Source of the DNA: Tupaia tana | Lineage: Eukaryota; Chordata; Mammalia; Scandentia; Tupaiidae | Length of the DNA stretch: 64,000 nt | Direction of reading: 5' to 3' | NCBI GenBank assembly: GCA_026018925.1 | Contig: JAKSZU010000134.1 | Location: forward strand, 124,001 to 188,000 | Shown here: positions 1 to 57,000 of the stretch, in pieces | Layout of the letters: the number at the start of each line of letters is the position of its first letter | Position numbering within the stretch: position 1 is the stretch's first letter | Translations under genes and position numbers: made by a program | Notes under the pieces: model-generated | Seen by the model: only the letters and a program-made list of their open reading frames with translations | The model's database searches: none | Told to the model about the DNA's origin: nothing

Positions 1-86
1 GGGGGGTGATTTCTCGCTTTCTATCTCTCTGTCTCTCTCTGTCTGTCTGGCGAGCGCACGCGCCCTATAGCGAAAAACCTCTCAAA
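1..86 (+). mobile_element. 3' fragment of the tRNA-derived SINE (cut by window edge), copy 1
   Basis: Positions 1-86 match 4990-5075 of the whole SINE copy, with one visible substitution (GCGAAAAACC against GCGAGAAACC). The fragment begins in the GGGGGGTGATTTC stretch, then has the pyrimidine tract (TCTCTGTCTCTCTCTG), the GC-rich GGCGAGCGCACGCGCC segment, CTATAGCG and the A-rich end. It joins the satellite at the same point as the other copies, followed by A7-TCGT-A5 (87-102), which is the 3' side of the target duplication. The tRNA-like head lies outside the window. It belongs to the same amplified insertion as the copies at 4819 and 7926. Confidence 0.93.
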
Positions 87-102
87 AAAAAAATCGTAAA
101 AA
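87..102. repeat. Right target-site duplication of SINE copy 1
   Basis: A7-TCGT-A5 directly after the SINE fragment at the window start. Its left partner lies outside the window. It is in the same position relative to the SINE end as in the other two copies. Confidence 0.8.
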
Positions 103-210
103 GGAAAAATTACCAAAAAAAAAAATGAGGAGACAGGAGCAGAGAGAGACAGAGACCTCAGGGACACAGAGACAGAGATAGAAGGCCAGAGGGGCTCCCT
201 ACCACACTAA

Positions 211-214
211 TTTT
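211..214 (+). terminator. Candidate Pol III stop (TTTT) after SINE copy 1
   Basis: The first T4 run downstream of the SINE fragment, in CACTAATTTTGC. Most monomers have CACTAGCTTTGC here, with only three T. Weak call: T4 runs also occur by chance. Confidence 0.3.
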
Positions 215-3200
215 GCTTGCTGGAGGCTGAATTATGAGTAGAAAATCTTCATTTCTCCTGAGCCCTGAAATATATAGTTCCCAGTATCCATGTGGAATCT
301 TCTCAGAGAATGGCTCAACTCTCCTGCCTGGGAGAAAGGAGCAGAAGGGCTTATTAACAAAACAAAAGATGGAGCTGAGAGCCAGAGAGAAATTCTACCT
401 TTAAAAAAATCGTAAAAACGTAAAATTACCAAAAAAAAATGAGGAGACAGGAGCAGAGAGACACAGAGACCTTAGAGACACAGAGACAGAGATAGAAGGC
501 CAGAGGGGCTCCCTACCACACTAGCTTTGCTTGCTGGAGGCTGAATTATGAGTAGAAAATCTTCATTTATCTTGAGCCCTGAAATATCTAGTTCCCAGTA
601 TCCATGTGGAACCTTCTCAGAGATTGGCTCAACTCTCCTGCCTGGGAGAAAGGAGCAGAAGGGCTTATTAACAAAACAAAAGATGGAGCTGAGAGCCAGA
701 GAGAAATTCTACCTTTAAAAAAATCGTAAATAGAAAAATTACCAAAAAAAAAGTGTGGAGATAGGAGCAGAGAGAGACAGAGACCTCAGAGACACAGAGA
801 CAGAGATAGAAGGCCAGAGGGCCTCCCTACCACACTAGCTTTGCTTGCTGGAGGCTGAATTATGAGTAGAAAATCTGCATTTCTCCTGAGCCCTGAAATA
901 TCTAGTTCCCAGTATCCATGTGGAATCTTCTCAGAGAATGGCTCAACTCTCCTGCCTGGGAGAAAGGAGCAGAAGGGATTATTAACAAAACAAAAGATGG
1001 AGCTGAGAGCCAGAGGGAAATTCTAACTTTAAAAAAATCGTCACAAAGAAAAATTACCAAAAAAAATGAGGAGACAGGAGCAGAGAGAGACAGAGACCTC
1101 AGAGACACAGAGACAGAGATAGAAGGCCAGAGGGGCTCCCTACCACACTAGCTTTGCATGCTGGAGGCTGAATTATGAGTAGAAAATCTTCATTTCTCCT
1201 GAGCCCTGAAATATCTCGTTCCCAGTATCCATGAGGAAACTTCTCAGAGAATGGCTCAACTCTCCTGCCTGGGAGAAAGGAACAGAAGGGCTTATTAACA
1301 AAACAAAAGATGGAGTTGAAAGCCAGAGAGTAATTCTACATTTAAAAAAATCGCAAAAAGGAAAAATTACCAAAAAAAAATGAGGAGACAGGAGCAGAGA
1401 GACACAGAGACCTCAGAGACACAGAGACAGAGATAGAAGGCCAGAGGGGCTCCCTACCACACTAGCTTTGCTTGCTGGAGGCTGAATTATGAGTAGAAAA
1501 TCTTCATTTCTCTTGAGCCCTGAAATATCTAGTTCCCAGTATCCATGTGGAATCTTCTCAGAGAATGGCTCAACTCTCCTGCCTGGGAAAAAGGAGCAGA
1601 AGGGCTTATTAACAAAACAAAAGATGGAGCTGAGAGCCAGAGAGAAATTCTACCTTTAAAAAATCGTAAATAGAAAAATTACCAAAAAATAAAATGAGGA
1701 GACAGGAGCAGAGAGAGACAGAGACCTCAGAGACACAGAGACAGAGATAGAAGGCCAGAGGGGCTCCCAACCACACTAGCTTTGCTTGCTGGAGGCTGAA
1801 TTATGAGTAGAAAATCTTCATTTCTCCTGAGCCCTGAAATATCTCGTACCCAGTATCCATGAGGAAACTTCTCAGAGAATGGCTCAACTCTCTTGCCTGG
1901 GAGAAAAGAGCAGAAGGGCTTATTAACAAAACAAAAGATGGAGCTGAGAGCCAGAGAGAATTTCTACCTTTAAAAAAATCGTAAAAAGGAAAAATTACAA
2001 AAAAAAAATGAGGAGACAGGAGCAGTGAGAGACAGAGATCTCAGGGACACAGAGACAGAGATAGAAGGCCAGAGGGGCTCCCTACCACACTAGCTATGCT
2101 TGCTGGAGGCTGAATTATGAGTAGAAAATCTTCATTTCTCCTGAGCCCTGATATATCTAGTTCCCAGTATCCATGTGGAATCTTCTCAGAGAATGGCTCA
2201 TCTCTCCTGCCTGCGAGAAAGAGCAGAAGGGCTTATTAACAAAACAAAAGATGAAGCTGAGAGCCAGAGAGAAATTCTACCTTTAAAAAAATCGTAAAAA
2301 GGAAAAATTACCAAAAAAATTGAGGAGACAGGAGGAGAGAGACAGAGACCTCAGAGACACAGAGACAGAGATAGAAGGCCAGAGGGGCTCCCTACCACAC
2401 TAGCTTTGCTTGCTGGAGGCTGAATTATGAGTAGAAAATCTTCATTTCTCCTGAGCCCTGAAATATCTACTTCCCAGTATGCATGTGGAATCTTCTCAGA
2501 GAATGGCTCAACTCTCCTGCCTGGGAGAAAGGAGCAGAAGGGCTTATTAACAAAACAAAAGATGGAGCTGAGAGCCAGAGAGAAATTCTACCTTTAAAAA
2601 AATCGTAAAAAGGAAAAATTACCAAAAAAAAAAGTGAGGAGATAGGAGCAGAGAAAGACAGAGACCTCAGAGACACAGAGACAGAGATAGAAGGCCAGAG
2701 GGGCTCCCTACCACACTAATTTTGCTTGCTGGAGGCTGAATTATGAGTAGAAAATCTTCATTTCTCCTGAGTCCTGAAATATATAGTTCCCAGTATCCAT
2801 GTGGAATCTTCTCAGAGAATGGCTCAACTCTCCTGCATGGGAGAAAGGAGCAGAAGTGCTTATTAACAAAAAAAAGATGGAGCTGAGAGCCAGAGAGAAA
2901 TTCTACCTTTAAAAAAATCGTAAAAACGTAAAATTACCAAAAAATAAAATGAGGAGACAGGAGCAGAGAGAGACAGAGACCTCAGAGACACAGAGACAGG
3001 GATATAAGGCCAGAGGGGCTCCCTACCACACTAGCTTTGCCTGCTGGAGGCTGAATTATGAGTAGAAAATCTTCATTTCTCCTGAGCCCTGAAATATCTA
3101 CTTCCCAGTATGCATGTGGAATCTTCTCAGAGAATGGCTCAAATCTCCTGCCTGGGAGAAAGGAGCAGAAGGGCTTATTAACAAAACAAAAGACGGAGCT

Positions 3201-4802
3201 GAGAGCCAGAGAGAAATTCTACCTTTAAAACAATCGTAAAATGGAAAAATTAGCAAAAAAAAAAATGAGGAGGCAGGAGCAGGGAGAGACAGAGACCTCA
3301 GAGACACAGAGACAGAGATAGAAGTCCAGAGCGTCTCCCTACCTCACTAGCTTTGCTTGCTGGAGGCTGAATTATGAGGAGAAAATCTTCATTTCTCCTG
3401 AGCCCTGACATATCTAGTTCCCAGTATCCATGTGGAATCTTCTCAGAGAATGCCTCAACTCTCCTGCCTGGGAGAAAGGAGCAGAAGGGCTTATTAAAAA
3501 AAACAAAAGATGGAGCTGAGAGCCAGAGAGAAATTCTACCTTTAAAAAAATCGTAAAAATAAAAAATTACCAAAAAAAAATGAGGAGACAGGAGCAGAGA
3601 GAGACAGAGACCTCAGAGACACAGAGACAGAGATAGAAGGCCCGAGGGGCTCCCTACCACACTAGCTTTGCTTCCTGGAGGCTGAATTATGAGTAGAAAA
3701 TCTTCATTTCTCCTGAGCCCTGAAATATCTAGTTCCCAGTATCCATGTGGAATCTTCTCAGAGAATGGCTCAACTCTCTTACCTGGGAGAAAGGAGCAGA
3801 AGGGCTTATTAACAAAACAAAAGATGGAGCTGAGAGCCAGAGAGAAATTCTACCTTTAAAAAAATCGTAAAAATGAAAAATTACCAAAAAAAATGAGGAG
3901 ACAGGAGCAGAGAGAGACAGAGACCTCAGAGACACGGAGACAGAGAAAGAACGCCAGAGGGGCTCCCTACCACACTAGCTTTGCCTGCTGGAGGCTGAAT
4001 TATGAGTAGAAAATCTTCCTTTCTCCTGAGCCCTGAAATATCTAGTTCCCAGTATCCATGTGGAAACTTCTCAGAGAATGGCTCAACTCTCCTGCCTGGG
4101 AGGAAGGAGCAGAAGGGCTTATTAACAAAACAAAAGATGGAGCTGAGAGCCAGAGAGAAATTCTACTTTTTAAAAAATCATAAAAAGGAAAAATTACCAA
4201 AAAAAAACAGAGGAGACAGGAGCAGAGAGATACAGAGACCTCAGAGACACAGAGACATAGATAGAAGGCCAGAGGGGCTCCCTACCACACTAGCTTTGCT
4301 TGCTGGAGGCTCAATTATGAGTAGAAAATCTTCATTTCTCCTGAGCCCTGAAATATCTAGTTCCCAGTATCCATGTGGAATCTTCTCAGAGAATGGCTCA
4401 ACTCTCCTGCCTGGGAGAAAGGAGCAGAAGGGCTTATTAACAAAACAAAAGATGGAGCTGAGAGCCAGAGAGAAATTCTACCTTTAAAAAAAATCGTAAA
4501 AAGGAAAAATTACCAAAAAAAAAAATGAGGAGACAGGAGCAGAGAGAGACAGAGACCTCAGTGACACTGAGAGAGAAATAGAAGGTCAGAGTGGCTCCCT
4601 ACCACACTAGCTTTGCTTGCTGGAGGCTGAATTATGAGTAGAAAATCTTCATTTCTCCTGAGCCCTGAAATATCTAGTTCCCAGTATCCATGTGGAATCT
4701 TCTCAGAGAATGGCTCAACTCTCCTGCCTGGGAGAAAGGAGCAGAAGGGCTTATTAACAAAACAAAAGATGGAGCTGAGAGCCAGAGAGAAATTCTACCT
4801 TT

Positions 4803-4818
4803 AAAAAAATCGTAAAAA
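4803..4818. repeat. Left target-site duplication of SINE copy 2
   Basis: A7-TCGT-A5 (16 bp) is repeated exactly at 5076-5091. SINE-free monomers have this sequence once, so they serve as empty-site references. The duplication begins right after TT, giving TT/AAAA on the top strand, the usual LINE-1 endonuclease nick context. Confidence 0.9.
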
Positions 4819-5075
4819 TGGGAACCAGCAGTTAGCGTAATGGCTATGTCGCTGGACTCCCACGTAGTCGACCGCGGTTCGCGTCTCGGACCCGGTGGCT
4901 TACAACTCACGCTGGGCGCGTGTGCGTGCGTGCCCAGGATCCCGAGAGGAGAATGGAGGAGAAGGGGTTGCGGCGTGACCATCCCCCCTGGGGGGTGATT
5001 TCTCGCTTTCTATCTCTCTGTCTCTCTCTGTCTGTCTGGCGAGCGCACGCGCCCTATAGCGAGAAACCTCTCAAA
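4819..5075 (+). mobile_element. tRNA-derived SINE, whole copy 2
   Basis: A 257-bp insert interrupts a monomer at TCGTAAAAA. Seen in order: a tRNA-like head (about 4820-4896) with an A-box-like TAGCGTAATGG (4833-4843) and a B-box-like GGTTCGCGTCT (4876-4886), 43 bp apart as in a tRNA; a GC-rich body with alternating GCGCGTGTGCGTGCGTG; a GGAGGAGAAGGGG stretch; a palindromic CCCCCCTGGGGGG (4983-4995); a pyrimidine tract (about 5007-5038); GGCGAGCGCACGCGCC; CTATAGCGAG; and an A-rich end. A 16-bp direct repeat (4803-4818 and 5076-5091) flanks it. About 24 CpGs remain, so the source was young or unmethylated. The head aligns by eye best with an arginine tRNA, but this is weak. It encodes no protein and would move by borrowed LINE machinery. 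I do not recognise the family. Confidence 0.9.
4833..4886 (+). promoter_or_regulatory. Internal Pol III promoter (A and B boxes) of SINE copy 2
   Basis: TAGCGTAATGG (4833-4843) fits the tRNA A-box pattern TRGYNNANNNG. GGTTCGCGTCT (4876-4886) fits the B-box pattern GGTTCGANNCC except at its 3' part, where GCGTCT replaces GANTCC. The 43-bp start-to-start spacing is what a tRNA would have. Transcription would run rightward, through the SINE and into satellite. Activity is inferred only; an array of this kind is normally silenced. Confidence 0.72.
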
Positions 5076-5143
5076 AAAAAAATCGTAAAAAGGAAAAATT
5101 ACCAAAAAAAAAATGAGGAGACAGGAGCAGAGAGAGACAGAGA
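5015..5143. repeat. Inverted repeat between SINE pyrimidine tract and satellite purine tract
   Basis: TCTCTGTCTCTCTCTG (5015-5030, in the SINE) is the exact reverse complement of CAGAGAGAGACAGAGA (5128-5143, in the satellite), 16 bp each with 97 bp between. The match extends imperfectly on both sides because both tracts are low-complexity GA/CA repeats. RNA from this stretch could fold into a stem. The same arrangement follows in the other SINE copies. Confidence 0.75.
5076..5091. repeat. Right target-site duplication of SINE copy 2
   Basis: This is the second copy of the 16-bp A7-TCGT-A5 repeat. It merges with the A-rich SINE end (10 A in total at 5073-5082), so the exact element/duplication border inside the A-run is a choice. 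The normal monomer resumes with GGAAAAATTACC. Confidence 0.88.
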
Positions 5144-7909
5144 CCTCAGAGACACAGAGACAGAGATAGAAGGCCAGAGGGGCTCCCTACCACACTAATT
5201 TTGCTTGCTGGAGGCTGAATTATGAGTAGAAAATCTTCATTTCTCCTGAGCCCTGAAATATATAGTTCCCTGTATCCATGTGGAATCTTCTCAGAGAATG
5301 GCTCAACTCTCCTGCCTGGGAGAAAGGAGCAGAAGGGCTTATTAACAAAACAAAAGATGGAGCTGAGAGCCAGAGAGAAATTCTAACTTAAAAAAAATCG
5401 TAAAAAGTAACAATTACCAAAAATTAAAATGAGGAGACAGGAGCAGAGAGAGACAGAGACCTCAGAGACACAGAGACAGAGATAGAAGGCCAGAGGGGCT
5501 CTCTATCACACTAGGTTTGATTGCTGGAGGCTGAATTATGAGGAGAAAATCTTCATTTTTCCTGAGCCCTGAAATATCTAGTTCCCAGTATCCATGTGGA
5601 ATCTTCTCAGAGAATGGCTCAACTCTCCTGCATGGGAGAAAGGAGCAGAAGGGCTTATTAACAAAACAAAAGATGGAGCTGAGAGCCAGAGAAAAATTCT
5701 AACTTTAAAAAAATCGTAAAAAGGAACAATTACCAAAAATTAAAATGAGGAGACAGGAGCAGAGAGAGACAGAGACCTCAGAGACACAGAAACAGAGATA
5801 GAAAGCCAGAGGGGCTCTCTATCACACTAGGTTTGCTTGCTGGAGTCTGAATTCTGAGTAGAAAATCTTCATTTCTCCTGAGCCCTGAAATATCTAGTTC
5901 CCAGTATCCATGTGGAATCTTCTCAGAGAATGGCTCAACACTCCTGCATGGGAGAAAGGAGCAGAAGGGCTCATTAACAAAACAAAAGATGGAGCTGAGA
6001 GCCAGAGAAAAATTGTACCTTTAAAAAATCGTAAAAGTGAAAAATTACCAAAAAAAAAAATGAGGAGACAGGAGCAGAGAGAGACAGGGACCTCAGAGAC
6101 AGAGAGACAGAGATAGAAGGCCAGAGGGGCTCCCTACCACACTAGCTTTGCTTGCTGGAGGCTGAATTATGAGTAGAAAGTCTTCCTTTCTCCTGAGCTC
6201 TAAAATATCTAGTTCCCAGTATCCATGTGGAATCTTCTCATAGAATGGCTCAACTCTCCTGCCTGGGAGAAAGGAGCAGAAGGGCTTATTAACAAAACAA
6301 AAGATGGAGCTGAGAGCCAGAGAGAAATTCTACCTTTAAAAAAATCGTAAAAAGGAAAAATTACCAAAAAAAAATTAGGAGACAGGAGCAGAGAGATACA
6401 GAGACCTCAGGGACACAGAGACAGAGATAGAAGGCCAGAGGGGCTCCCTACCACACTAGCTTTGCTTGCTGGAGGCTGAATTATGAGTAGAAAATCTTCA
6501 TTTCTCCTGAGCCCTGAAATATCTAGTTCCCAGTATCCATGTGGAATCTTCTCAGAGAATGGCTCAACTCTCCTGCCTGGTAGAAAGGAGTAGAAGGGCT
6601 TATTAACAAAACAAAAGATGGAGCTGAGATCTAGAGAGAAATTCTACCTATAAAAAATCGTACAAAGGAAAAATTACCAAAAAAAAAAATGAGGAGACAG
6701 GAGCAGAGTGAGACAGAGACTTCTGAGACACAGAGACAGAGATAGAAGGCCAGAGGGGCTCCCTACCACTCTAGCTTTGCTTGCTGGAGGCTGAATTATG
6801 AGTAGAAAATCTTCATTTCTCCTGAGCCCTGAAATATCTAGTTCCCAGTATCCATGTGGAATCTTCTCAGAGAATGGCTCAACTCTCCTGCCTGGGAGAA
6901 AGAGCAGAAGGGCTTATTAACAAAACAAAAGATGGAGCTGAGATCTAGAGAGAAATTCTACCTTTAAAAAAATCGTACAAAGGAAAAATTACCAAAAAAA
7001 TATGAGGAGACAGGAGCAGAGTGAGACAGAGACTTCACAGACACAGAGACAGAGATAGAAGGCAAGAGGGGCTCCCTACCACTCTAGCTTTGCTTGCTGG
7101 AGGCTGAATTATGAGTAGAAAATCTTCATTTCTCCTGAGCCCTGAAATATCTAGTTCCCAGTATCCATGTGGAATCTTCTCAGAGAATGGCTCCACTCTC
7201 CTGCGTGGCAGAAAGGAGCAGAAGGGCTTATTAACAAAACAAAAGATGGAGCTGAGAGCCAGAGAGAAATTCTAACTTAAAAAAAATCGTAAAAAGTAAC
7301 AATTACCAAAAATTAAAATGAGGAGACAGGAGCAGAGAGAGACAGAGACCTCAGAGACACAGAGACAGAAATAGAAGGCCAGAGGGGCTCTCTATCACAC
7401 TAGGTTTGATTGCTGGAGGCTGAATTCTGAGTAGAAAATCTTCATATTTCCTGAGCCCTGAAATATCTAGTTCCCAGTATCCATGTGGAATCTTCTCAGA
7501 GAATGGCTCAACTCTCCTGCATGGGAGAATGGAGCAGAAGGGCTTATTAACAAAACAAAAGATGGAGCTGAGAGCCAGAGAAAAATTGTACCTTTAAAAA
7601 ATCGTAAAATTGAAAAATTACCAAAAAAAAAATGAGGAGACAGGAGCAGAGAGAGACAGAGACCTCAGAGACAGAGAGACAGAGATAGAAGGCCAGAGGG
7701 GCTCCCTACCATACTAGCTTTGCTTGCTGGAGGCTGAATTATGAGTAGAAAGTCTTCCTTTCTCCTGAGCTCTAAAATATCTAGTTCCCAGTATCCATGT
7801 GGAACCTTCTCAAAGAATGGCTCAACTCTCCTGCCTGGGAGAAAGGAGCAGAAGGGCTTATTAACAAAAGAAAAGATGGAGCTGAGAGCCAGAGAGAAAT
7901 TCTACCTTT
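5092..7909. repeat. Nine-monomer satellite stretch between SINE copies 2 and 3
   Basis: Landmarks 4691 and 7798 are 3107 bp apart: nine monomers plus 274 bp of SINE and duplication. Early units carry an AACAATTACCAAAAATTAAAATG-type A-tract end and CTATCACACTAGG. Later units carry GAGATCTAGAG in place of GAGAGCCAGAG (near 6628 and 6940). The first monomers (5092 to about 6340) are repeated almost unchanged after SINE copy 3. Confidence 0.85.
5199..5202 (+). terminator. Candidate Pol III stop (TTTT) after SINE copy 2
   Basis: The SINE body has no T4 on the top strand. The first one downstream is here, about 124 bp past the SINE end, created by the CACTAATTTTGC variant of the next monomer. A transcript starting near 4819 and stopping here would be about 385 nt and half satellite. 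Inference from sequence only. Confidence 0.35.
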
Positions 7910-7925
7910 AAAAAAATCGTAAAAA
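7910..7925. repeat. Left target-site duplication of SINE copy 3
   Basis: The same A7-TCGT-A5 repeat as at 4803-4818, matched by 8184-8199. That the duplication is identical in both copies is the main evidence that they descend from one insertion. Confidence 0.9.
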
Positions 7926-8183
7926 TGGGAACCAGCAGTTAGCGTAATGGCTATGTCGCTGGACTCCCACGTAGTCGACCGCGGTTCGCGTCTCGGACCC
8001 GGTGGCTTACAACTCACGCTGGGCGCGTGTGCGTGCGTGCCCAGGATCCCGAGAGGAGAATGGAGGAGAAGGGATTGCGGCGTGACCATCCCCCCTGGGG
8101 GGTGATTTCTCGCTTTCTATCTCTCTGTCTCTCTCTGTCTGTCTGGCGAGCGCACGCGCCCTATAGCGAGAAACCTCTCAAAA
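7926..8183 (+). mobile_element. tRNA-derived SINE, whole copy 3
   Basis: By eye this copy is identical to the one at 4819-5075 apart from one substitution (GAAGGGATTG for GAAGGGGTTG) and one extra A in the A-rich end. The A-box-like (7940-7950) and B-box-like (7983-7993) elements are unchanged. The flanking 16-bp repeats (7910-7925 and 8184-8199) are the same sequence at the same monomer position. The near-identity and shared target site mean it arose by duplication of satellite plus SINE. Downstream satellite to about 9447 closely matches that after copy 2, but the upstream satellite within the same monomer is of a different subtype, so one edge of the copied segment lies very close to the SINE 5' end. 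Confidence 0.9.
7940..7993 (+). promoter_or_regulatory. Internal Pol III promoter (A and B boxes) of SINE copy 3
   Basis: A-box-like TAGCGTAATGG (7940-7950) and B-box-like GGTTCGCGTCT (7983-7993), unchanged from copy 2. The same limits apply: the B box is imperfect and there is no evidence of use. Confidence 0.72.
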
Positions 8184-8199
8184 AAAAAAATCGTAAAAA
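8184..8199. repeat. Right target-site duplication of SINE copy 3
   Basis: Second copy of the 16-bp repeat, preceded by four further A residues of the SINE tail (11 A in total at 8180-8190). Confidence 0.88.
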
Positions 8200-9447
8200 G
8201 GAAAAATTACCAAAAAAAAAATGAGGAGACAGGAGCAGAGAGAGACAGAGACCTCAGAGACACAGAGACAGAGATAGAAGGCCAGAGGGGCTCCCTACCA
8301 CACTAATTTTGCTTGCTGGAGGCTGAATTATGAGTAGAAAATCTTCATTTCTCCTGAGCCCTGAAATATATAGTTCCCTGTATCCATGTGGAATCTTCTC
8401 AGAGAATGGCTCAACTCTCCTGCCTGGGAGAAAGGAGCAGAAGGGCTTATTAACAAAACAAAAGATGGAGCTGAGAGCCAGAGAGAAATTCTAACTTAAA
8501 AAAAATCGTAAAAAGTAACAATTACCAAAAATTAAAATGAGGAGACAGGAGCAGAGAGAGACAGAGACCTCAGAGACACAGAGACAGAGATAGAAGGCCA
8601 GAGGGGCTCTCTATCACACTAGGTTTGATTGCTGGAGGCTGAATTATGAGGAGAAAATCTTCATTTTTCCTGAGCCCTGAAATATCTAGTTCCCAGTATC
8701 CATGTGGAATCTTCTCAGAGAATGGCTCAACTCTCCTGCATGGGAGAAAGGAGCAGAAGGGCTTATTAACAAAACAAAAGATGGAGCTGAGAGCCAGAGA
8801 AAAATTCTAACTTTAAAAAAATCGTAAAAAGGAACAATTACCAAAAATTAAAATGAGGAGACAGGAGCAGAGAGAGACAGAGACCTCAGAGACACAGAAA
8901 CAGAGATAGAAAGCCAGAGGGGCTCTCTATCACACTAGGTTTGCTTGCTGGAGGCTGAATTCTGAGTAGAAAATCTTCATTTCTCCTGAGCCCTGAAATA
9001 TCTAGTTCCCAGTATCCATGTGGAATCTTCTCAGAGAATGGCTCAACACTCCTGCATGGGAGAAAGGAGCAGAAGGGCTCATTAACAAAACAAAAGATGG
9101 AGCTGAGAGCCAGAGAAAAATTGTACCTTTAAAAAATCGTAAAAGTGAAAAATTACCAAAAAAAAAAATGAGGAGACAGGAGCAGAGAGAGACAGGGACC
9201 TCAGAGACAGAGAGACAGAGATAGAAGGCCAGAGGGGCTCCCTACCACACTAGCTTTGCTTGCTGGAGGCTGAATTATGAGTAGAAAGTCTTCCTTTCTC
9301 CTGAGCTCTAAAATATCTAGTTCCCAGTATCCATGTGGAATCTTCTCAGAGAATGGCTCAACTCTCCTGCCTGGGAGAAAGGAGCAGAAGGGCTTATTAA
9401 CAAAACAAAAGATGGAGCTGAGAGCCTGAGAGAAATTCTACCTTTAA
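8200..9447. repeat. Satellite segment duplicated from 5092-6340, downstream of SINE copy 3
   Basis: About four monomers match 5092-6340 at an offset of 3107-3108 bp, including private changes: CCCTGTATCC (near 8376 and 5268), GGTTTGATTGC, TATGAGGAG and CTCCTGCATGGG. Small differences exist (for example GGAGTCTG near 5843 against GGAGGCTG near 8951). Similarity drops near 9440, where TTTAAGAAAATCGTAAAAGGG replaces the other copy's sequence. The copied unit is therefore SINE plus about 1.25 kb of satellite. Confidence 0.85.
8307..8310 (+). terminator. Candidate Pol III stop (TTTT) after SINE copy 3
   Basis: Same CACTAATTTTGC variant at the same distance from the SINE as after copy 2. The variant is shared because the segment was copied, not necessarily because it is selected. 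Confidence 0.35.
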
Positions 9448-12400
9448 GAAAATCGTAAAAGGGAAAAATTACAAAAAAAAAATGAGGAGACAGGAGCAGG
9501 GAGAGACAGAGACCTCAGAGACACAGAGACAGAGATAGAAGGCCAGAGGGGCTCCCTCCCACACTAGCTTTGCTTGCTGGAGGCTGAATTATGAGTAGAA
9601 AATCTTCATTTCTCCTGAGCCCTGAAATATCTAGTTCCCAGTATCCATGTGTAATCTTCTCAGAGAATGGCTCAACTCTCCTGCCTGGCAGAAAGGAGCA
9701 GAAGGACTTATTAACAAAACAAAAGATGGACCTGAGAGCCAGAGAGAAATTCTACCTTTAAAAATTCATAAAAAGGAAAAATTACCAAAAAAAAATGAGG
9801 AGACAGGAGCAGAGAGAGACAGAGACCTCAGAGACACAGAGACAGAGATAGAAGGCAAGAGGGGCTCCCTACCACACTAGCTATGCTTGCTGGAGGCTGA
9901 ATTATGAGTAGAAAATCTTCATTTCTCCTGAGCCCTGAAATATCTAGTTCCCAGTATACATGTGGAATCTTCTCAGAGAATGGCTCAACTCTCTTGCCTG
10001 GGAGAAAGGAGCAAAAGGGCTTATTAACAAAACAAAAGATGAAGCTGAGAGCCAGAGAGAAATTCTACCTTTAAAAAAATCGTACAAAGGAAAAATTACC
10101 AAAAAAAATGAGGAGACAGGAGCAGAGAGATACAGAGACCTCAGGGACACAGAGACAGAGATAGAAGGCCAGAGGGGCTCTCTATCACAGTAGGTTTGCT
10201 TGCTGGAGGCTGAATTCTGAGTAGAAAATCTTCATTTCTCCAGAGCCCAGAAATATCTAGTTCCCAGTATCCATGTGGAATCTTCTCAGAGAATGGCTCA
10301 ACTCTCCTGCCTGGGAGAAAGAGCAGAAGGGCTTATTAACAAAACAAAAGATGGAGCTGAGATCTAGAGAGAAATTCTACCTTTAAAAAAATCGTACAAA
10401 GGAAAAATTACCAAAAAATTATGAGGAGACAGGAGCAGAGTGAGACAGAGACTTCAGAGACACAGAGACAGAGATAGAAGGCCAGAGGGGCTCCCTACCA
10501 CTCTAGCTTTGCTTGCTGGAGGCTGAATTATGAGTAGAAAATCTTCATTTCTCCTGAGCCCTGAAATATCTAGTTCCCAGTATCCATGTGGAATCTTCTC
10601 AGAGAATGGCTCAACTCTCCTGCCTGGCAGAAAGGAGCAGAAGGGCTTATTAACAAAACAAAAGATGGAGCTGAGAGCCAGAGAGAAATTCTAACTTTAA
10701 AAAAATCGTAAAAAGGAACAATTACCAAAAATTAAAATGAGGAGACAGGAGCAGAGAGAGACAGAGACCTCAGAGACACAGAAACAGAGATAGAAAGCCA
10801 GAGGGGCTCTCTATCACACTAGGTTTGCTTGCTGGAGGCTGAATTCTGAGTAGAAAATCTTCATTTCTCCTGAGCCCTGAAATATCTAGTTCCCAGTATC
10901 CATGTGGAATCTTCTCAGAGAATGGCTCAACTCTCCTGCATGGGAGAAAGGAGCAGAAGGGCTCATTAACAAAACAAAAGATGGAGCTGAGAGCCAGAGA
11001 AAAATTGTACCTTTAAAAAATCGTAAAATTGAAAAATTACCAAAAAAAAAAATGAGGAGACAGGAGCAGAGAGAGACAGAGACCTCAGAGACAGAGAGAC
11101 AGAGATAGAAGGCCAGAGGGGCTCCCTACCATACTAGCTTTGCTTGCTGGAGGCTGAATTATGAGTAGAAAGTCTTCCTTTCTCCTGAGCTCTAAAATAT
11201 CTAGTTCCCAGTATCCATGTGGAATTTTCTCAGAGAATGGCTCAACTCTCCTGCCTGGGAGAAAGGAGCAGAAGGGCTTATTAACAAAACAAAAGATGGA
11301 GCTGAGAGCCAGAGAGAAATTCTACCTTTAAAAAAATCGTATAAATGAAAAATTACCAAAAAAAATGAGGAGACAGGAGCAGAGAGAGACAGAGACCTCA
11401 GAGACACAGGGACATAGATAGAAGGCCAGAGGGGCTCCCTACCACTCTAGCTTTGCTTGCTGGATGCTGAATTATGAGCAGAAAATCTTCATTTCTCCTG
11501 AGCCCTGAAATATCTAGTTCCCAGTATCCATGTGGAATCTTCTCAGAGAATGGCTCAACTCTCCTGCCTGGGAGAAAGGAGCAGAAGGGCTTATTAACAA
11601 AACAAAGATGGACCTGAGAGCCAGAGAGAAATTCTACCTTTAAAAAAATCGTAGAAAGGAAAAATTACCAAAAAAAAAAATGAGGAGACAGGAGCAGAGA
11701 GATACAGAGACCTCAGAGACACAGAGACAGAGACAGAAGGCCAGAGGGGCTCCCTACCACACCAGCTTTGCTTGCTGGTGGCTGAATTATGAGTAGAAAT
11801 TCTTCATTTCTCCTGAGCCCTGAAATATCTAGTTCCCAGTATACATGTGTAATCTTCTCAGAGAATGGCTCAACTCTCCAGCCTGGGAGAAAGGAGCAGA
11901 AGGGCTTATTAACAAAACAAAAGATGGACCTGAGAGCCAGAGAGAAATTCTACTTTTAAAAATTCATAAAAAGGAAAAATTACCAAAAAAAAATGAGGAG
12001 ACAGGAGCAGAGAGAGACAGAGACCTCAGAGACACAGAGACAGAGATAGAGGGCAAGAGGGGCTCCCTACCACACTAGCTATGCTTGCTGGAGGCTGAAT
12101 TATGCGTAGAAAATCTTCATTTCTCCTGAGCCATGAAATATCTAGTTCCCAGTATACATGTGGAAACTTCTCAGAGAATGGCTCAACTCTCTTGCCTGGG
12201 AGAAAGGAGCAAAAGGGCTTATTAACAAAACAAAAGATGAAGCTGAGAGCCAGAGAGAAATTCTACCTTTAAAAAAATCGTACAAAGGAAAAATTACCAA
12301 AAAATTATGAGGAGACAGGAGCAGAGTGAGACAGAGACTTCAGAGACACAGAGACAGAGATAGAAGGCCAGAGGGGCTCCCTACCACTCTAGCTTTGCTT

Positions 12401-15400
12401 GCTGGAGGCTGAATTATGAGTAGAAAATCTTCATTTCTCCTGAGCCCTGAAATATCTAGTTCCCAGTATCCATGTGGAATCTTCTCAGAGAATGGCTCAA
12501 CTCTCCTGCCTGGCAGAAAGGAGCAGAAGGGCTTATTAACAAAACAAAAGATGGAGCTGAGAGCCAGAGAGAAATTCTAACTTTAAAAAAATCGTAAAAA
12601 GGAACAATTACCAAAAATTAAAATGAGGAGACAGGAGCAGAGAGAGACAGAGACCTCAGAGACACAGAAACAGAGATAGAAAGCCAGAGGGGCTCTCTAT
12701 CACACTAGGTTTGCTTGCTGGAGGCTGAATTCTGAGTAGAAAATCTTCATTTCTCCTGAGCCCTGAAATATCTAGTTCCCAGTATCCATGTGGAATCTTC
12801 TCAGAGAATGGCTCAACTCTCCTGCATGGGAGAAAGGAGCAGAAGGGCTCATTAACAAAACAAAAGATGGAGCTGAGAGCAAGAGAAAAATTGTACCTTT
12901 AAAAAATCGTAAAATTGAAAAATTACCAAAAAAAAATGAGGAGACAGGAGCAGAGAGAGACAGAGACCTCAGAGACAGAGAGACAGAGATAGAAGGCCAG
13001 AGGGGCTCCCTACCACACTAGCTTTGCTTGCTGGAGGCTGAATTATGAGTAGAAAGTCTTCCTTTCTCCTGAGCTCTAAAATATCTAGTTCCCAGTATCC
13101 ATGTGGAAACTTCTCAGAGAATGGCTCAACTCTCCTGCCTGGGAGAAAGGAGCAGAAGGGCTTATTAACAAAACAAAAGATGGACCTGAGAGCCAGAGAG
13201 AAATTCTACCTTTAAAAAAATCGTAGAAAGGAAAAATTACCAAAAAAAAAATGAGGAGACAGGAGCAGAGAGATACAGAGACCTCAGAGACACAGAGACA
13301 GAGACAGAAGGCCAGAGGGGCTCCCTACCACACCAGCTTTGCTTGCTGGTGGCTGAATTATGAGTAGAAATTCTTCATTTCTCCTGAGCCCTGAAATATC
13401 TAGTTCCCAGTATACATGTGTAAACTTCTCAGAGAATGGCTCAACTCTCCAGCCTGGGAGAAAGGAGCAGAAGGGCTTATTAACAAAACAAAAATGGAGC
13501 TGAGAGCCAGAGAGAAATTCTACCTTTAAAAAAATGGTAAAAAGGAAAAATTACCAAAAAAATAAAATAAGGAGACAGGAGCAGACAGAGACAGAGACCT
13601 CAGAGACACAGAGACAGAGATAGAAGGCCAGAGGGGCTCCCTACCACACTAGCTTTGCTTGCTGGAGGCTGAATTATGAGTAGAAAATCTTCATTTCTCC
13701 TGAGCCCTGAAATATCTAGTTCCCAGTATCCATGTGAAATCTTCTCAGAGAATGGCTCAACTCTCCTGCCTGGGAGAAAGAGCAGAAGGGCTTATTAACA
13801 AAACAAAAGATGGAGCTGAGATCTAGAGAGAAATTCTACCTTTAAAAAAATCGTACAAAGGAAAAATTACCAAAAAAATATGAGGAGACAGGAGCAGAGT
13901 GAGACAGAGACTTCAGAGACACAGAGACAGAGATAGAAGGCAAGAGGGGCTCCCTACCACTCTAGCTTTGCTTGCTGGAGGCTGAATTATGAGTAGAAAA
14001 TCTTCATTTCTCCTGAGCCCTGAAATATCTAGTTCCCAGTATCCATGTGGAATCTTCTCAGAGAATGGCTCCACTCTCCTGCCTGGCAGAAAGGAGCAGA
14101 AGGGCTTATTAACAAAACAAAAGATGGAGCTGAGAGCCAGAGAGAAATTCTAACTTAAAAAAAATCGTAAAAAGTAACAATTACCAAAAATTAAAATGAG
14201 GAGACAGGAGCAGAGAGAGACAGAGACCTCAGAGACACAGAGACAGAGATAGAAGGCCAGAGGGGCTCTCTATCACACTAGGTTTGATTGCCGGAGGCTG
14301 AATTATGAGGAGAAAATCTTCATTTTTCCTGAGCCCTGAAATATCTAGTTCCCAGTATCCATGTGGAATCTTCTCAGAGAATGGCTCAACTCTCCTGCAT
14401 GGGAGAAAGGAGCAGAAGGGCTTATTAACAAAACAAAAGATGGAGCTGAGAGCCAGAGAAAAATTGTACCTTTAAAAAATCGTAAAATTGAAAAATTACC
14501 AAAAAAAAAATGAGGAGACAGGAGCAGAGAGAGACAGAGACCTCAGAGACAGAGAGACAGAGATAGAAGGCCAGAGGGGCTCCCTACCATACTAGCTTTG
14601 CTTGCTGGAGGCTGAATTATGAGTAGAAAGTCTTCCTTTCTCCTGAGCTCTAAAATATCTAGTTCCCAGTATCCATGTGGAATCTTCTCAGAGAATGGCT
14701 CAACTCTCCTGCCTGGGAGAAAGGAGCAGAAGGGCTTATTAACAAAACAAAAGATGGAGCTGAGTGCCAGAGAGAAATTCTTCCTTTAAAAAAATCGTAT
14801 AAAGGAAAAATTACCAAAAAAAATGAGGAGACAGGAGCAGAGAGAGACAGAGACCTCAGAGACACAGGGACAGAGATAGAAGGCCAGAGGGGCTCCCTTC
14901 CACACAAGCTTTCCTTGCTGGATGCTGAATTATGAGCAGAAAATCTTCATTTCTCCTGAGCCCTGAAATATCTAGTTCCCAGTATCCATGTGGAATCTTC
15001 TCAGAGAATGGCTCAACTCTCCTGCCTGGGAGAAAGGAGCAGAAGGGCTTATTAACAAAACAAAAGATGGAGCTGAGAGCCAGAGAGAAATTCTACCTTT
15101 AAGAAAATCGTAAAAGTGAAAAATTACAAAAAAAAAATGAGGAGACAGGAGCAGGGAGAGACAGAGACCTCAGAGACACAGAGACAGAGATAGAAGGCCA
15201 GAGGGGCTCCCTCCCACACTAGCTTTGCTTGCTGGAGGTTGAATTATGAGTAGAAAATCTTCACTTCTCCTGAGCCCTGAAATATCTAGTTCCCAGTATC
15301 CATGTGGAATCTTCTCAGAGAATGGCTCAACTCTCCTGCCTGGCAGAAAGGAGCAGAAGGGCTTATTAACAATACAAAAGATGGACCTGAGAGCCAGAGA

Positions 15401-18400
15401 GAAATTCTACCTTTAAAAATTCATAAAAAGGAAAAATTACCAAAAAAAAATGAGGAGACAGGAGCAGAGAGAGACAGAGACCTCAGAGACACAGAGACAG
15501 AGATAGAAGGCAAGAGGGGCTCCCTACCACACTAGCTATGCTTGCTGGAGGCTGAATTATGAGTAGAAAATCTTCATTTCTCCTGAGCCCTGAAATATCT
15601 AGTTCCCAGTATACATGTGGAATCTTCTCAGAGAATGGCTCAACTCTCTTGCCTGGGAGAAAGGAGCAAAAGGGCTTATTAACAAAACAAAAGATGAAGC
15701 TGAGAGCCAGAGAGAAATTATACCTTTAAAAAAATCGTACAAAGGAAAAATTACCAAAAAATTATGAGGAGACAGGAGCAGAGTGAGACAGAGACTTCAG
15801 AGACACAGAGACAGAGATAGAAGGACAGAGGGGCTCCCTACCACTCTAGCTTTGCTTGCTGGAGGCTGAATTATGAGTAGAAAATCTTCATTTCTCCTGA
15901 GCCCTGAAATATCTAGTTCCCAGTATCCATGTGGAATCTTCTCAGAGAATGGCTCAACTCTCCTGCCTGGCAGAAAGGAGCAGAAGGGCTTATTAACAAA
16001 ACAAAAGATGGAGCTGAGAGCCAGAGAGAAATTCTAACTTTAAAAAAATCGTAAAAAGGAACAATTACCAAAAATTAAAATGAGGAGACAGGAGCAGAGA
16101 GAGACAGAGACCTCAGAGACACAGAAACAGAGATAGAAAGCCAGAGGGGCTCTCTATCACACTAGGTTTGCTTGCTGGAGGCTGAATTCTGAGTAGAAAA
16201 TCTTCATTTCTCCTGAGCCCTGAAATATCTAGTTCCCAGTATCCATGTGGAATCTTCTCAGAGAATGGCTCAACTCTCCTGCATGGGAGAAAGGAGCAGA
16301 AGGGCTCATTAACAAAACAAAAGATGGAGCTGAGAGCAAGAGAAAAATTGTACCTTTAAAAAATCGTAAAATTGAAAAATTACCAAAAAAAAATGAGGAG
16401 ACAGGAGCAGAGAGAGACAGAGACCTCAGAGACAGAGAGACAGAGATAGAAGGCCAGAGGGGCTCCCTACCACACTAGCTTTGCTTGCTGGAGGCTGAAT
16501 TATGAGTAGAAAGTCTTCCTTTCTCCTGAGCTCTAAAATATCTAGTTCCCAGTATCCATGTGGAATCTTCTCAGAGAATGGCTCAACTCTCCTGCCTGGG
16601 AGAAAGGAGCAGAAGGGCTTATTAACAAAACAAAAGATGGAGCTGAGAACCAGAGAGAAATTCTACCTTTAAAAAAATCGTAAAAAGGAAAAATTACCAA
16701 AAAAAAATTTAGGAGACAGGAGCAGAGAGATACGGAGACCTCAGGGACAAGAGACAGAGATAGAAGGCCAGAGGGGCTCCCTACCACACTAGCTTTGCTT
16801 GCTGGAGGCTGAATTATGAGTAGAAAATCTTCATTTCTCCTGAGCCCTGAAATATCTAGTTCCCAGTATCCATGTGGAATCTTCTCAGAGAATGGCTCAA
16901 CTCTCCTGCCTGGGAGAAAGGAGTAGAAGGGCTTATTAACAAAACAAAAGATGGAGCTGAGATCTAGAGAGAAATTCTACCTTTAAAAAAATCGTACAAA
17001 GGAAAAATTACCAAAAAAAAAATGAGGAGACAGGAGCAGAGTGAGACAGAGACTTCAGAGACACAGAGACATAGATAGAAGGCCAGAGGGGCTCCCTACC
17101 ACTCTAGCTTTGCTTGCTGGAGGCTGAATTATGAGTAGAAAATCTTCATTTCTCCTGAGCCCTGAAATATCTAGTTCACAGTATCCATGTGGAATCTTCT
17201 CAGAGAATGGCTCAACTCTCCTGCCTGGGAGAAAGAGCAGAAGGGCTTATTAACAAAACAAAAGATGGAGCTGAGATCTAGAGAGAAATTCTACCTTTAA
17301 AAATATCGTACAAAGGAAAAATTACCAAAAAAATATGAGGAGACAGGAGCAGAGTGAGACAGAGACTTCAGAGACACAGAGACAGAGATAGAAGGCCAGA
17401 GGGGCTCCCTTCCACTCTAGCTTTGCTTGCTGGAGGCTGAATTATGAGTAGAAAATCTTCATTTCTCCTGAGCCCTGAAATATCTAGTTCCCAGTATCCA
17501 TGTGGAATCTTCTCAGAGAATGGCTCCACTCTCCTGCCTGGCAGAAAGGAGCACAAGGGCTTATTAACAAAACAAAAGATGGAGCTGAGAGCCAGAGAGA
17601 AATTCTAACTTAAAAAAAATCGTAAGAAGTAACAATTACCAAAAATTAAAATGAGGAGAAAGGAGCAGAGAGAGACAGAGACCTCAGAGACACAGAGACA
17701 GAGATAGAAGGCCAGAGGGGCTCTCTATCACACTAGGTTTGATTGCTGGAGGCTGAATTCTGAGTAGAAAATCTTCATTTTTCCTGAGCCCTGAAATATC
17801 TAGTTCCCAGTATCCATGTGGAATCTTCTCAGAGAATGGCTCAACTCTCCTGCATGGGAGAAAGGAGCAGAAGGGCTTATTAACAAAACAAAAGATGGAG
17901 CTGAGAGCCAGAGAAAAATTGTACCTTTAAAAAATCGTAAAATTGAAAAATTACCAAAAAAAAAATGAGGAGACAGGAGCAGAGAGAGACAGAGACCTCA
18001 GAGACAGAGAGACAGAGATAGAAGGCCAGAGGGGCTCCCTACCATACAAGCTTTGCTTGCTGGAGGTTGAATTATGAGTAGAAAGTCTTCCTTTCTCCTG
18101 AGCTCTAAAATATCTAGTTCCCAGTATCCATGTGGAATCTTCTCAGAGAATGGCTCAACTCTCCTGCCTGGGAGAAAGGAGCAGAAGGGCTTATTAACAA
18201 AACAAAAGATGGAGCTGAGAGCCAGAGAGAAATTCTACCTTTAAAAAAATCGTATAAATGAAAAATTACCAAAAAAAATGAGGAGACAGGAGCAGAGAGA
18301 GACAGAGACCTCAGAGACACAGGGACAGAGATAGAAGGCCAGAGGGGCTCCCTACCACTCTAGCTTTGCTTGCTGGATGCTGAATTACGAGCAGAAAATC
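9448..18400. repeat. Mosaic satellite block with 5+6 = 11-monomer spacing
   Basis: Monomers with CTGAGCTCTAAAATAT have landmark positions 9334, 11218, 13102, 14676, 16559 and 18131, separated by 6, 6, 5, 6 and 5 monomers. The same family (6226, 7798) occurs upstream. Consequently 11218, 14676 and 18131 are 3458 and 3455 bp apart, and near-identical stretches recur at 3457 bp (12788 and 16245; 11845 and 15302). The repeat is not a clean higher-order unit: after several matching monomers the order changes. Other local variants are GATGGACCTGAG and ATTGAAAAATTACC. No genes are seen here. Confidence 0.8.
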
Positions 18401-20940
18401 TTCATTTCTCCTGAGCCCTGAAATATCTAGTTCCCAGTATCCATGTGGAATCTTCTCAGAGAATGGCTCAACTCTCCTGCCTGGGAGAAAGGAGCAGAAG
18501 GGCTTATTAACAAATCAAAAGATGGACCTGAGAGCCAGAGAGAAATTCTACCTTTAAAAAAATCGTAGAAAGGAAAAATTACCAAAAAAAAAATGAGGAG
18601 ACAGGAGCAGAGAGATACAGAGACCTCAGAGACACAGAGACAGAGACAGAAGGCCAGAGGGGCTCCCTACCACACCAGCTTTGCTTGCTGGTGGCTGAAT
18701 TATGAGTAGAAATTCTTCATTTCTCCTGAGCCCTGAAATATCTAGTTCCCAGTATACATGTGTAATCTTCTCAGAGAATGGCTCAACTCTCCAGCCTGGG
18801 AGAAAGGAGCAGAAGGGCTTATTAACAAAACAAAAGATGGAGCTGAGAGCCAGAGAGAAATTCTACCTTTAAAAAAATGGTAAAAAGGAAAAATTACCAA
18901 AAAAATAAAATAAGGAGACAGGAGCAGAGAGAGACAGAGACCTCAGAGACACAGAGACAGAGATAGAAGGCCAGAGGGGCTCCCTACCACACTAGCTTTG
19001 CTTGCTGGAGGCTGAATTATGAGTAGAAAATCTTCATTTCTCCTGAGCCCTGAAATATCTAGTTCCCAGTATCCATGTGGAATCTTCTCAGAGAATGGCT
19101 CAACTCTCCTGCCTGGGAGGAAGGAGCAGAAGGGCTTATTAACAAAACAGAAGATGGAGCTGAGAGCCAGATAGAAATTCTACCTTTTAAAAAATCGTAA
19201 AATTGAAAAATTACCAAAAAAAAAAATGAGGAGACAGGAGCAGAGAGAGACAGAGACCTCAGAGACACAGAGACAGAGACAGAAGCCAGAGGGGCTCCCT
19301 ACCACACTAGCTTTGCTTGCTGGAGGCTGAATTATGAGTAGAAAATCTTCATTTCTCCAGATCCCTGAAATATGTTGTTCCAGTATCCATGTGGAATCTT
19401 CTCAGAGAATGGCTCAACTCTCCTGCCTGGCAGAAAGGAGCAGAAGGGCTTATTAACAAAACAAAAGATGGAGCTGAGAGCCAGAGAGAAATTCTACCTT
19501 TAAAAAAATCGTAAAAAGGAAAAATTACCCAAAATTAAAATGAGGAGACAGGAGCAGAGAGAGACAGAGACCTCAGAGACACAGAGACAGAGACAGAAGG
19601 CCAGAGGGGCTCCATACCACACTAGGTTTGCTTGCTGGAGGCTGAATTCTGAGTAGAAAATCTTCATTTCTCCTGAGCCCTGAAATATCTGGTTCCCAGT
19701 ATCCATGTGGAAACTTCTCAGAGAATGGCTCAACTCTCCTGCATGGGAGAAAGGAGCAGAAGGGCTTATTAACAAAACAAAAGATGGAGCTGAGAGCCAG
19801 AGAAAAATTCTACCTTTAAAAAATCGTAAAATTGAAAAATTACCAAAAAAAAAATGAGGAGACAGGAACAGAGAGAGACAGAGACCTCAGAGACAGAGAG
19901 ACAGAGATAGAAGGCCAGAGGGGCTCCCTACCACACTAGTTTTGCTTGCTGGAGGCTGAATTATGAGTAGAAAATCTTCATTTCTCCTTAGCCCTGAAAT
20001 ATCTAGTTCACAGTATCCATGTGGAATCTTCTCAGAGAATGGCTCAAGTCTCCTGCCTGGGAGAAAGAGCAGAAGGGCTTATTAACAAAACAAAAGACGG
20101 AGCTGAGATCTAGAGAGAAATTCTACCTTTAAAAAAATCGTACAAAAGAAAAATTACCAAAAAAAATGATGAGACAGGAGCAGAGAGAGACAGAGACTTC
20201 AGAGACACAGAGACATAGATAGAAGGCCAGAGGGGCTCCCTACCACTCTACCTTTGCTTGCTGGATTCTGAATTATGAGTAGAAAATCTTCATTTCTCCT
20301 GAGCCCTGAAATATCTAGTTCCCAGTATCCATGTGTAATCTTCGCAGAGAATGGCTCAACTCTCCTGCCTGGGAGAAAGGATCAGAAGGGCTTATTAACA
20401 AAACAAAAGATGGAGCTGAGAGCCAGAGAGAAATTCTACCTTAAAAAAAATCGTAAAAAGTAAAAATTACCAAAAAAATAAAATAAGGAGACAGGAGCAG
20501 AGAGAGACAGAGACCTCAGAGACACAGAGACAGAGATAGAAGGCCAGAGGGGCTCCCTACCACACTAGCTTTGCTTGCTGGAGGCTGAATTATGAGTAGA
20601 AAATCTTCATTTCTCCTGAGCCCTGAAATATCTAGTTCCCAGTATCCATGTGGAAACTTCTCAGAGAATGGCTCAACTCTCCTGCCTGGGAGAAAGGAGC
20701 AGAAGGGCTTATTAACAAAACAAAAGATGGAGCTGAGAGCCAGAGAGAAATTCTACCTTTAAAAAAAATCGTATAAAGGAAAAATTAACAAAAAAAATGA
20801 GGAGACAGGAGCAGAGAGAGACAGAGACCTCAGAGTCACAGAGAGAGATAGAAGTCCAGAGGGGCTCCCTACCACACTAGCTTTGCTTGCTGGATGCTGA
20901 ATTATGAGCAGAAAATCTTCATTTCTCCTGAGCCCTGAAA
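18401..20940. repeat. Satellite segment, left partner of a 23-monomer (7.23-kb) duplication
   Basis: A run of about eight monomers recurs at about 25640-28150. Matched points include the GATGGACCTGAG / TCGTAGAAAGG monomer (near 18525 and 25757), the CTCCAGATCCCTG variant (19360 and 26591, offset 7231), GACGGAGCTGAGATCTAG (near 20098 and 27328) and the CTGGATGCTG monomer (near 20893 and 28125). The left copy has private decay in one unit (ATATGTTGTTCCAG near 19372). Confidence 0.75.
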
Positions 20941-23900: not shown

Positions 23901-25639
23901 AAAACTCATAAAATTGAAAAATTACCAAAAAAAAATGAGGAGACAGGAGCAGAGAGAGACAGAGACCTCAGAGACACAGAGACAGAGATAGAAGGCCAGA
24001 GGGGCTCCCTACCACACTAGCTTTGCTTGCTGGAGGCTGAATTATGAGTAGAAAGTCTTCCTTTCTCCTGAGCTCTAAAATATCTAGTTCCCAGTATCCA
24101 TGTGGAATCTTCTCAGAGAATGGCTCAACTCTCCTGCCTGGGAGAAAGGAGCAGAAGGGCTTATTAACAAAACAAAAGATGGAGCTGAGAGCCAGAGAGA
24201 AATTCTACCTTTAAAAAAATCGTATAAAGGAAAAATTACCAAAAAAAAATGAGGAGACAGGAGCAGAGAGAGACAGAGACCTCAGAGACACAGGGACAGA
24301 GATAGAAGTCCAGAGGGGCTCCCTACCACACTAGCTTTGCTTGCTGGATGCTGAATTATGAGCAGAAAATCTTCATTTCTCCTGAGCCCTGAAATATCTA
24401 CTTCCCAGTATCCATGTGGAATCTTCTCAGAGAATGGCTCAACTCTCCTGCCTGGGAGAAAGGAGCAGAAGGGCTTATTAACAAAACAAAAGATGGAGCT
24501 GAGAGCCAGAGAGAAGTTCTACCTTTAAAAAAATCGTAAAAGGGAAAAATTACAAAAATAAAATGAGGAGACAGGAGCAGGGAGAGACAGAGACCTCAGA
24601 GACACAGAGACCGAGATAGAAGGCCAGAGGGGCTCCCTACCACACTAGCTTTGCTTGCTGGAGGCTGAATTATGAGTAGAAAACCTTCATTTCTCCTGAG
24701 CCCTGAAATATCTAGTTCCCAGTATCCATGTGGAATCTTCTCAGAGAATGGCTCAACTCTCCTGCCTGGGAGAAAGAGCAGAAGGGCTTATTAACAAAAC
24801 AAATGATGGAGCTGAGATCTAGAGAGAAATTCTACCTTTAAAAAAAACGTACAAAGGAAAAATTACCAAAAAAAAATGAGGAGACAGGAGCAGAGTGAGA
24901 CAGAGACTTCAGAGACACAGAGACAGAGATAGAAGGCCAGAGGGGCTCCCTACCACTCTAGCTTTGCTTGCTGGAGGCTGAATTATGAGAAGAAAATCTT
25001 CATTTCTCCTGAGCCCTGAAATATCTAGTTCCCAGTATCCATGTGTAATCTTCTCAGAGAATGGCTCAACTCTCCTGCCTGGGAGAATGGATCAGAAGGG
25101 CTTATTAACAAAACAAAAGATGGAGCTGAGAGCCAGAGAGAAATTCTACCTTTAAAAAAATCGTAAAGAGGAAAAATTACCAAAAAAATAAAATAAGGAG
25201 ACAGGAGCAGAGAGATACAGAGACCTCAGAGACACAGAGACAGAGATAGAAGGCCAGAGGGGCTCCCTACCACACTAGCTTTGCTTGCTGGAGACTGAAT
25301 TATGAGAAGAAAATCTTCATTTCTCCTGAGCCCTGAAATATCTAGTTCCCAGTATCCATGTGGAATCTTCTCAGAGAATGGCTCAACTCTCTTGCCTGGG
25401 AGAAAGGAGCAGAAGGGCTTATTAACAAAACAAAAGATGGAGCTGAGAGCCAGAGAGAAATTCTACCTTTAAAAAAATCGTAACAAGGAAAAATTACCAA
25501 AAAGAAAAATGAGGATACAGGAGCAGAGAGAGACAGAGACCTCAGAGACACAGAGACAGAGATAGAAGGCCAGAGGGGCTCCCTACCACACTAGCTTTGC
25601 TTGCTGGAGGCTGAATTATGAGTAGAAAATCTTCATTTC
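20941..25639. repeat. Satellite between the two 23-monomer partners
   Basis: About 15 monomers continue the mosaic of the preceding blocks. GAGCTC-type units have landmarks at 21908 and 24111. ATACATGTGTAATC units (near 21272) match others near 18752 and 25988. The GATGAAGCTGAG monomer at 22846 matches 15616 at 7230 bp. No insert, gene or array edge is seen. Confidence 0.8.
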
Positions 25640-56800: not shown

Positions 56801-57000
56801 CCATGTGGAATCTTCTCAGATAATGGCTCAACACTCCTGCCAGGGAGAAAGGAGCAGAAGTGCTTATTAACAAAACAAAAGATGGAGCTGAGAGCCAGAG
56901 AGAAATTCTACCTTTAAAAAAATCGTCAAAAGGAAAAATTACCAAAAAGAAAAATGAGGAGACAGGAACAGAGAGAGACAGAGACCTCAGAGACACAGAG
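44801..57000. repeat. Satellite block with GCTAGACCG-type monomers and 19/23/26-monomer relations
   Basis: A different monomer set dominates. GAGAGCTAGACCG occurs near 45871, 46503, 51854, 53739 and 56577, GCTAGATAG near 46819, 52487 and 54058, and TCTTAAAAAGAAAAATT A-tract ends are common. Long-range matches: 44824 and 53006 (8182 bp, 26 monomers); CTGCCTCGGAG at 45509 and 53691 (8182 bp); CTAGACCG at 45876 and 51859 (5983 bp, 19 monomers); 46990 and 54226, and 47342 and 54579 (7236-7237 bp, 23 monomers). The change from 8182 to 7236 marks loss or gain of three monomers. No gene is seen. Confidence 0.8.

Follow-up and report, generated by a model that had tools for sequence, protein, structure and literature searches.

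It is highly probable that the array filling the window (the whole 64,000-nucleotide stretch of Tupaia tana DNA analyzed here) is built of L1 monomers, that these monomers offer SINEs a favored insertion base, that a single insertion at this base was amplified along contig C236, and that independent insertions took place at the same base elsewhere. With somewhat less assurance, it is likely that a monomer of the L1 5'UTR has turned into an extensive satellite, each unit of which contains an L1-endonuclease site and acts as a fixed-base landing pad, used repeatedly by SINEs, and that this satellite has several times made an insertion into a composite repeat, once as the 5'UTR of an L1 itself. 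Three processes would be joined in this way: the conversion of an L1 5'UTR unit into a satellite, repeated landing of SINEs on a base that the sequence of the unit determines, and amplification into composite repeats.

The window corresponds to C236:124001-188000, within a 546-kb contig of which 264 kb, including the window, was read; the assembly searched amounts to 2.95 Gb. At positions 84..64000, ~315-bp monomers follow one another in tandem except where SINEs interrupt them, and the (-) strand is the L1 sense strand of this array. The monomers run head-to-tail through the window at a mean pairwise divergence of 5.4%, and the 199 anchors, giving 200 intervals once two were filled in, bear out the roughly 200 monomers of the first-pass annotation. 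Over the 264 kb of C236 the monomers keep a single orientation in 835 intervals, forming the long head-to-tail array by which satellite DNA is recognized, and their spacing continues all through this stretch, in which no L1 body is present. A gap of 100 N lies at C236:283905-284004. Positions 27179-37200 of the window are a tandem duplication of 16 monomers at 0.86% divergence, and a 26-monomer repeat at C236:66687 and 74547, at 0.28% divergence, is a very recent duplication. Paired 125-bp anchor spacings at C236:89004, 104339, 108369 and 267912 are perhaps short internal repeats formed by part of the monomer.

The array unit is a tandem 5'UTR monomer of L1. At three loci, L057, L058 and L059, the monomer and a common linker lie upstream of an L1 ORF1 frame with matching direction. 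The ORF1p of L058 was identified by a PDB sequence search as LINE-1 ORF1P (E 2.6e-8), and L057 and L059 match the L058 ORF1 stretch at 86-90%; when two L1 ORF1 fragments were run against Pfam, the only matches were three weak coiled-coil ones, below cut-off, in one fragment. A query joining linker and monomer was matched over 258-261 of its 261 bases, at 94-100%, in all 40 places scored out of 1450 candidates, and these 40 places are spread over 19 contigs and both strands, the top one being the query's own locus. Four of them were fetched as stretches of 1.7 kb each; every one contained more than one monomer length and one contained more than five units, and no SINE was present in these four L1 5' ends. 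As in other L1 5'UTRs with tandem monomers, the unit sits upstream of ORF1 in the L1 sense, is repeated in tandem and varies in number among dispersed L1s. Since L058 is an older L1 with the same layout, its monomer being 80-84% like the consensus, we infer that the L1 5'UTR gave rise to the satellite and not the reverse. An LTR origin of the monomer was dropped once L1 ORF1 was found adjoining. Some L1 5' ends (L060, L061, L063) have a longer monomer variant beside or replacing the 315-bp unit; in L063 it measures ~437 bp, and position 241 jumps back to 108. A second SINE is present at L057:2080-2326, between the L1 linker and ORF1.

Three SINE copies are found in the window, all within its first 8.2 kb and all, with their flanking features, on the (+) strand. 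The window edge truncates copy 1, leaving only its 3' part (1..83) and 3' junction; the contig has the complete element (C236:123831-124084), which occupies the same monomer base as the others, and its 3' target-site duplication, A7-TCGT-A5, lies at 87..102, with a start that is ambiguous inside an A run. Copy 2 is full length (4820..5072), is preceded by a T at 4819, has a tail of three A ahead of the duplication, and stands between 5' and 3' target-site duplications of A7-TCGT-A5 at 4803..4818 and 5076..5091. Copy 3, also full length (7927..8179), has four A ahead of the duplication, which is again A7-TCGT-A5 at 7910..7925 (5') and 8184..8199 (3'). Copies 2 and 3 are alike in orientation and monomer phase; all that distinguishes them is a substitution (4967 G, 8074 A) and an extra tail A. 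The three copies are separated by one SINE plus 15 monomers and one SINE plus 9 monomers. The first-pass annotation was accurate in all these respects, having reported that the copies break the monomer at the same base, that an identical 16-bp duplication flanks both whole copies, that these are distinguished by a single substitution and a single A, and that the spacing is 15 and 9 monomers. No tRNA was found in the SINE by ARAGORN or Rfam (also run on L057), and box-like A and B motifs were seen by eye only.

The shared base has a plausible cause in the monomer. Among dispersed copies of the SINE, 23 insertions with a duplication found display the features of SINEs mobilized by L1, namely a TT/AAAA-like motif, duplications of 11-18 bp and an A tail. 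A matrix made from these 23 insertions places the observed base at rank 1 of 630 monomer positions on both strands, with a predicted share of insertions of 60% using all 16 matrix columns and 28-33% using the core columns (bootstrap 8-90%). Each intact monomer appears to contain a single strong target like that of the L1 endonuclease (bottom strand, 5'-TTTTTTT/AAAGG), and SINEs using the L1 machinery would tend toward the same base through a presumed endonuclease step. Because the target is favored, separate insertions would often give the same base and the same duplication, and the two together are weak evidence for one insertion. The same base alone was accordingly rejected as proof of a single insertion, given the favored target and the different SINE subfamilies at that base. 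The first-pass annotation had considered independent hits on one base very unlikely, an argument that does not survive the rank of this base and the presence of other subfamilies there. The warning is a general one: a common insertion site in a satellite does not prove a common insertion.

What argues for a single insertion in the C236 array is the DNA on either side of the SINEs. The 264 kb contains nine full SINEs at one shared monomer base, a T precedes all nine, and they form one clade with support of 97/90 in a tree with 29 array SINEs and a weaker 80/86 in a tree with 25. A rare upstream monomer variant, GAGAGAGAAATAGAAGGTCAGAGTGG, found at 4569..4594 (+), 251 bp upstream of copy 2, occurs six times in the 264 kb, each time exactly 251 bp before a SINE. 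The downstream variant CTAATTTTG occurs 17 times and adjoins a SINE in only six cases, so that SINE-less relatives of the insertion site remain; one such empty-site relative is at 2412..3042 (+), where monomers with CTAATTTTG (2716), AATATATAGTTCCC (2778) and CGTAAAAACGTAAAATTACC (2919) present the 3'-flank variants of copy 1 and no SINE. Two SINE-bearing tracts of ~1.55 kb, 4764..6318 and 7871..9426 (both +; the end near 6318 is approximate), each with a SINE and about four monomers, are separated by 4 differences, with dense differences beyond both ends, including 28 in the 463 bp directly upstream (4301-4763). Correspondingly, monomers m15-m17 beside copy 2 match m24-m26 beside copy 3 at 0, 0 and 0.3% divergence, against the mean of 5.4%. 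Copy 1 and its left neighbor (C236:118534) lie inside a duplication of 15 monomers with a 5.3-kb offset and 0.47% divergence, and 18 monomers around C236:118534 match a stretch around 278389, 160 kb away, at 0.55%. Shared tracts of such differing length and offset suggest that several exchanges of different size copied the SINE. The upstream variant is missing at three of the nine C236 SINEs and the downstream variant at three of nine; at 111658 and 298513 neither is present. Later exchanges with breakpoints close to the SINE would give this pattern. From these shared flanks, the C236 SINEs are read as one insertion amplified together with its surroundings: a single SINE would have landed, and unequal exchange together with local tract transfer would have copied it with neighboring monomers until nine stood in 264 kb.

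The same junction is present on other contigs. The first-pass annotation had proposed that many junctions with the same target site elsewhere in the array would speak for continued amplification, and, in addition to the nine same-site SINEs in C236, a pattern for the SINE-satellite junction (at most 2 mismatches) gave 166 matches in the assembly (133 + 33) vs 3 for the reversed control; among the 100 of the 166 that were listed, ten contigs account for 98 and C111 for the other two. The search was for this one junction, and sampled sites are thus chosen by base, so that when all 16 short stretches fetched outside C236 have their SINE at this base, this concerns places picked by that junction. 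SINEs of different subfamilies occupy this base on other contigs: those of C199 have old-subfamily states shared with dispersed copies, and that of C531, with its long A tail, is 2 differences away from the dispersed consensus. An AU test rejects a single clade of all array SINEs (p 0.0008 with 25 SINEs, p 0.0046 with 29). Among six two-group unions, C236 with C243/C323 is the sole rejection (p 0.019); those not rejected are C236 with C199 (0.095), C236 with C852/C506 (0.34), C243/C323 with C199 (0.35), C243/C323 with C852/C506 (0.088) and C236 with the C1197 composite (0.63), the tree constrained to this last union scoring even 2.8 higher. In the tree with 29 array SINEs the five C1197 composite SINEs are not one clade (4 changes); bootstrap is unsettled in both trees, and gene conversion among SINEs could blur them. 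The 26 dispersed SINEs in the trees come from 17 loci and comprise hits to a C236 SINE used as query and bystander copies there, a sample that favors relatives of C236, and BLAST pieces covering <225 query bases are omitted, including the second, cut-off SINE of L056. Most array SINEs are nearer to a dispersed SINE than to any in the arrays of other contigs. This does not apply to two pairs of contigs, C243/C323 and C852/C506, whose SINEs are closer to each other (down to 0.4%), nor to one of the five C1197 composite SINEs, which is slightly nearer C236 (3.9 vs 4.0%). In the single L1 loci L057 and L058 the hosts differ by 10-12% and the SINEs by 6.3% (5.3% outside CpG); insertion of the SINEs most likely postdates the split between the hosts. 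The evidence supports at least two independent SINE insertions at the same base, and there were probably more, the tree with 29 array SINEs having 11 label changes. The first-pass claim of one amplified insertion holds up for this array, by its clade, the six of six upstream variants and the 1.55-kb tract.

Other histories for these copies are less probable in varying degree. The strongest competitor, itself improbable, is a single ancient insertion behind all SINE-bearing arrays, with differences that arose later or came by gene conversion from dispersed SINEs. It would account for the same base in every sampled array, although these were found by that junction, and five of the six pairwise unions are not rejected; it conflicts with the AU rejection of an all-array clade on both trees, with the old states of C199 set against a C531 SINE near the dispersed consensus and bearing a long A tail, and with the L1 hosts of L057 and L058, which differ more than their SINEs. 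There is little to recommend the view that SINEs spread by L1 retrotransposition of SINE-bearing 5'UTRs and not by recombination within arrays. L057, L058 and L059 are indeed L1 5' ends with a SINE inside the monomer, but C236 has multi-monomer runs in common that lie 5.3 kb and 160 kb apart, all in one orientation, and single L1 copies show discordant divergence of SINE and host.

Duplication in the assembly, which could be suspected from the 100-N gap in C236 and from the difficulty of assembling arrays, is equally hard to sustain: flanks and SINE variants are not the same from copy to copy, copies 1-3 of the window are far from the gap, and other contigs have this junction too. Least credible of all is that closely related SINEs inserted separately at a favored base to give the C236 copies. 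The base is a favored target and recurs elsewhere in the genome, and young dispersed SINEs are near-identical among themselves; however, the six of six rare 5' variants and the identical downstream monomers are shared flanks, the nested SINE variants are tied to flank variants, and the T stands before all nine. One insertion amplified in C236, with independent insertions in other arrays, is the reading that we prefer.

In other arrays, SINEs would have landed independently at the same base and been amplified too, in C199 into a regular repeat. Many junction spacings approximate the length of one SINE and an integral number of monomers; others, mostly long, do not. Among those listed for C199, 7 of 16 intervals measure 2150-2157 bp, which is one SINE plus six monomers. 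At L059 (C1197:107430000-107433500) five SINEs in 3.5 kb alternate strictly with single monomers beside L1 ORF1. No regular SINE-bearing higher-order repeat is present in the window, and spacing in C236 is irregular; the first-pass statement that the SINE unit had not entered such a repeat is correct for the window and does not extend to the genome, as C199 demonstrates. Its description of a satellite that made a SINE into a repeated component likewise agrees with amplification of the SINE with the array and was incomplete, as the array unit is an L1 5'UTR monomer. The stages are found in one genome, namely an L1 with one SINE, the scattered copies of C236, the regular ones of C199 and the alternating ones of C1197, and the steps in the birth of a composite satellite become directly comparable.

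Parallels with known elements and satellites are instructive. The 5'UTRs of mouse L1 (Tf, Gf and A) consist of tandem monomers of ~200 bp; the Tupaia tana unit is similarly tandem, upstream of ORF1 and variable in number per element, whereas it measures ~315 bp and is found in long arrays as well, 264 kb of which contain no L1 body. In its TT/AAAA-like target, duplications of 11-18 bp and A tail, the SINE described here resembles mammalian SINEs mobilized by L1; it has no tRNA match in Rfam. The common cetacean satellite derives from the 3' end of L1 and PROsat of Phodopus from ORF2 (PMC9659126, PMC6947457). These are also cases of L1 sequence become satellite DNA, and differ from the present one in that the source here is a 5'UTR monomer, which the element itself already carries in tandem. 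The portion of the satellite table examined holds no L1 5'UTR case (PMC9659126). In a literature search covering titles and abstract openings, with subscription journals mostly outside it, there was neither a satellite from L1 5'UTR monomers nor recurrent same-base SINE insertion in a satellite. Bovine 1.711b has an insert inside the satellite. A mariner sits in a satellite of Messor (PMC9659126). The arrays of T. tana resemble both in harboring a mobile element within a satellite, and are unlike them in that the element is a SINE, located at one base, which seems to have inserted on more than one occasion and to have been amplified in separate arrays.
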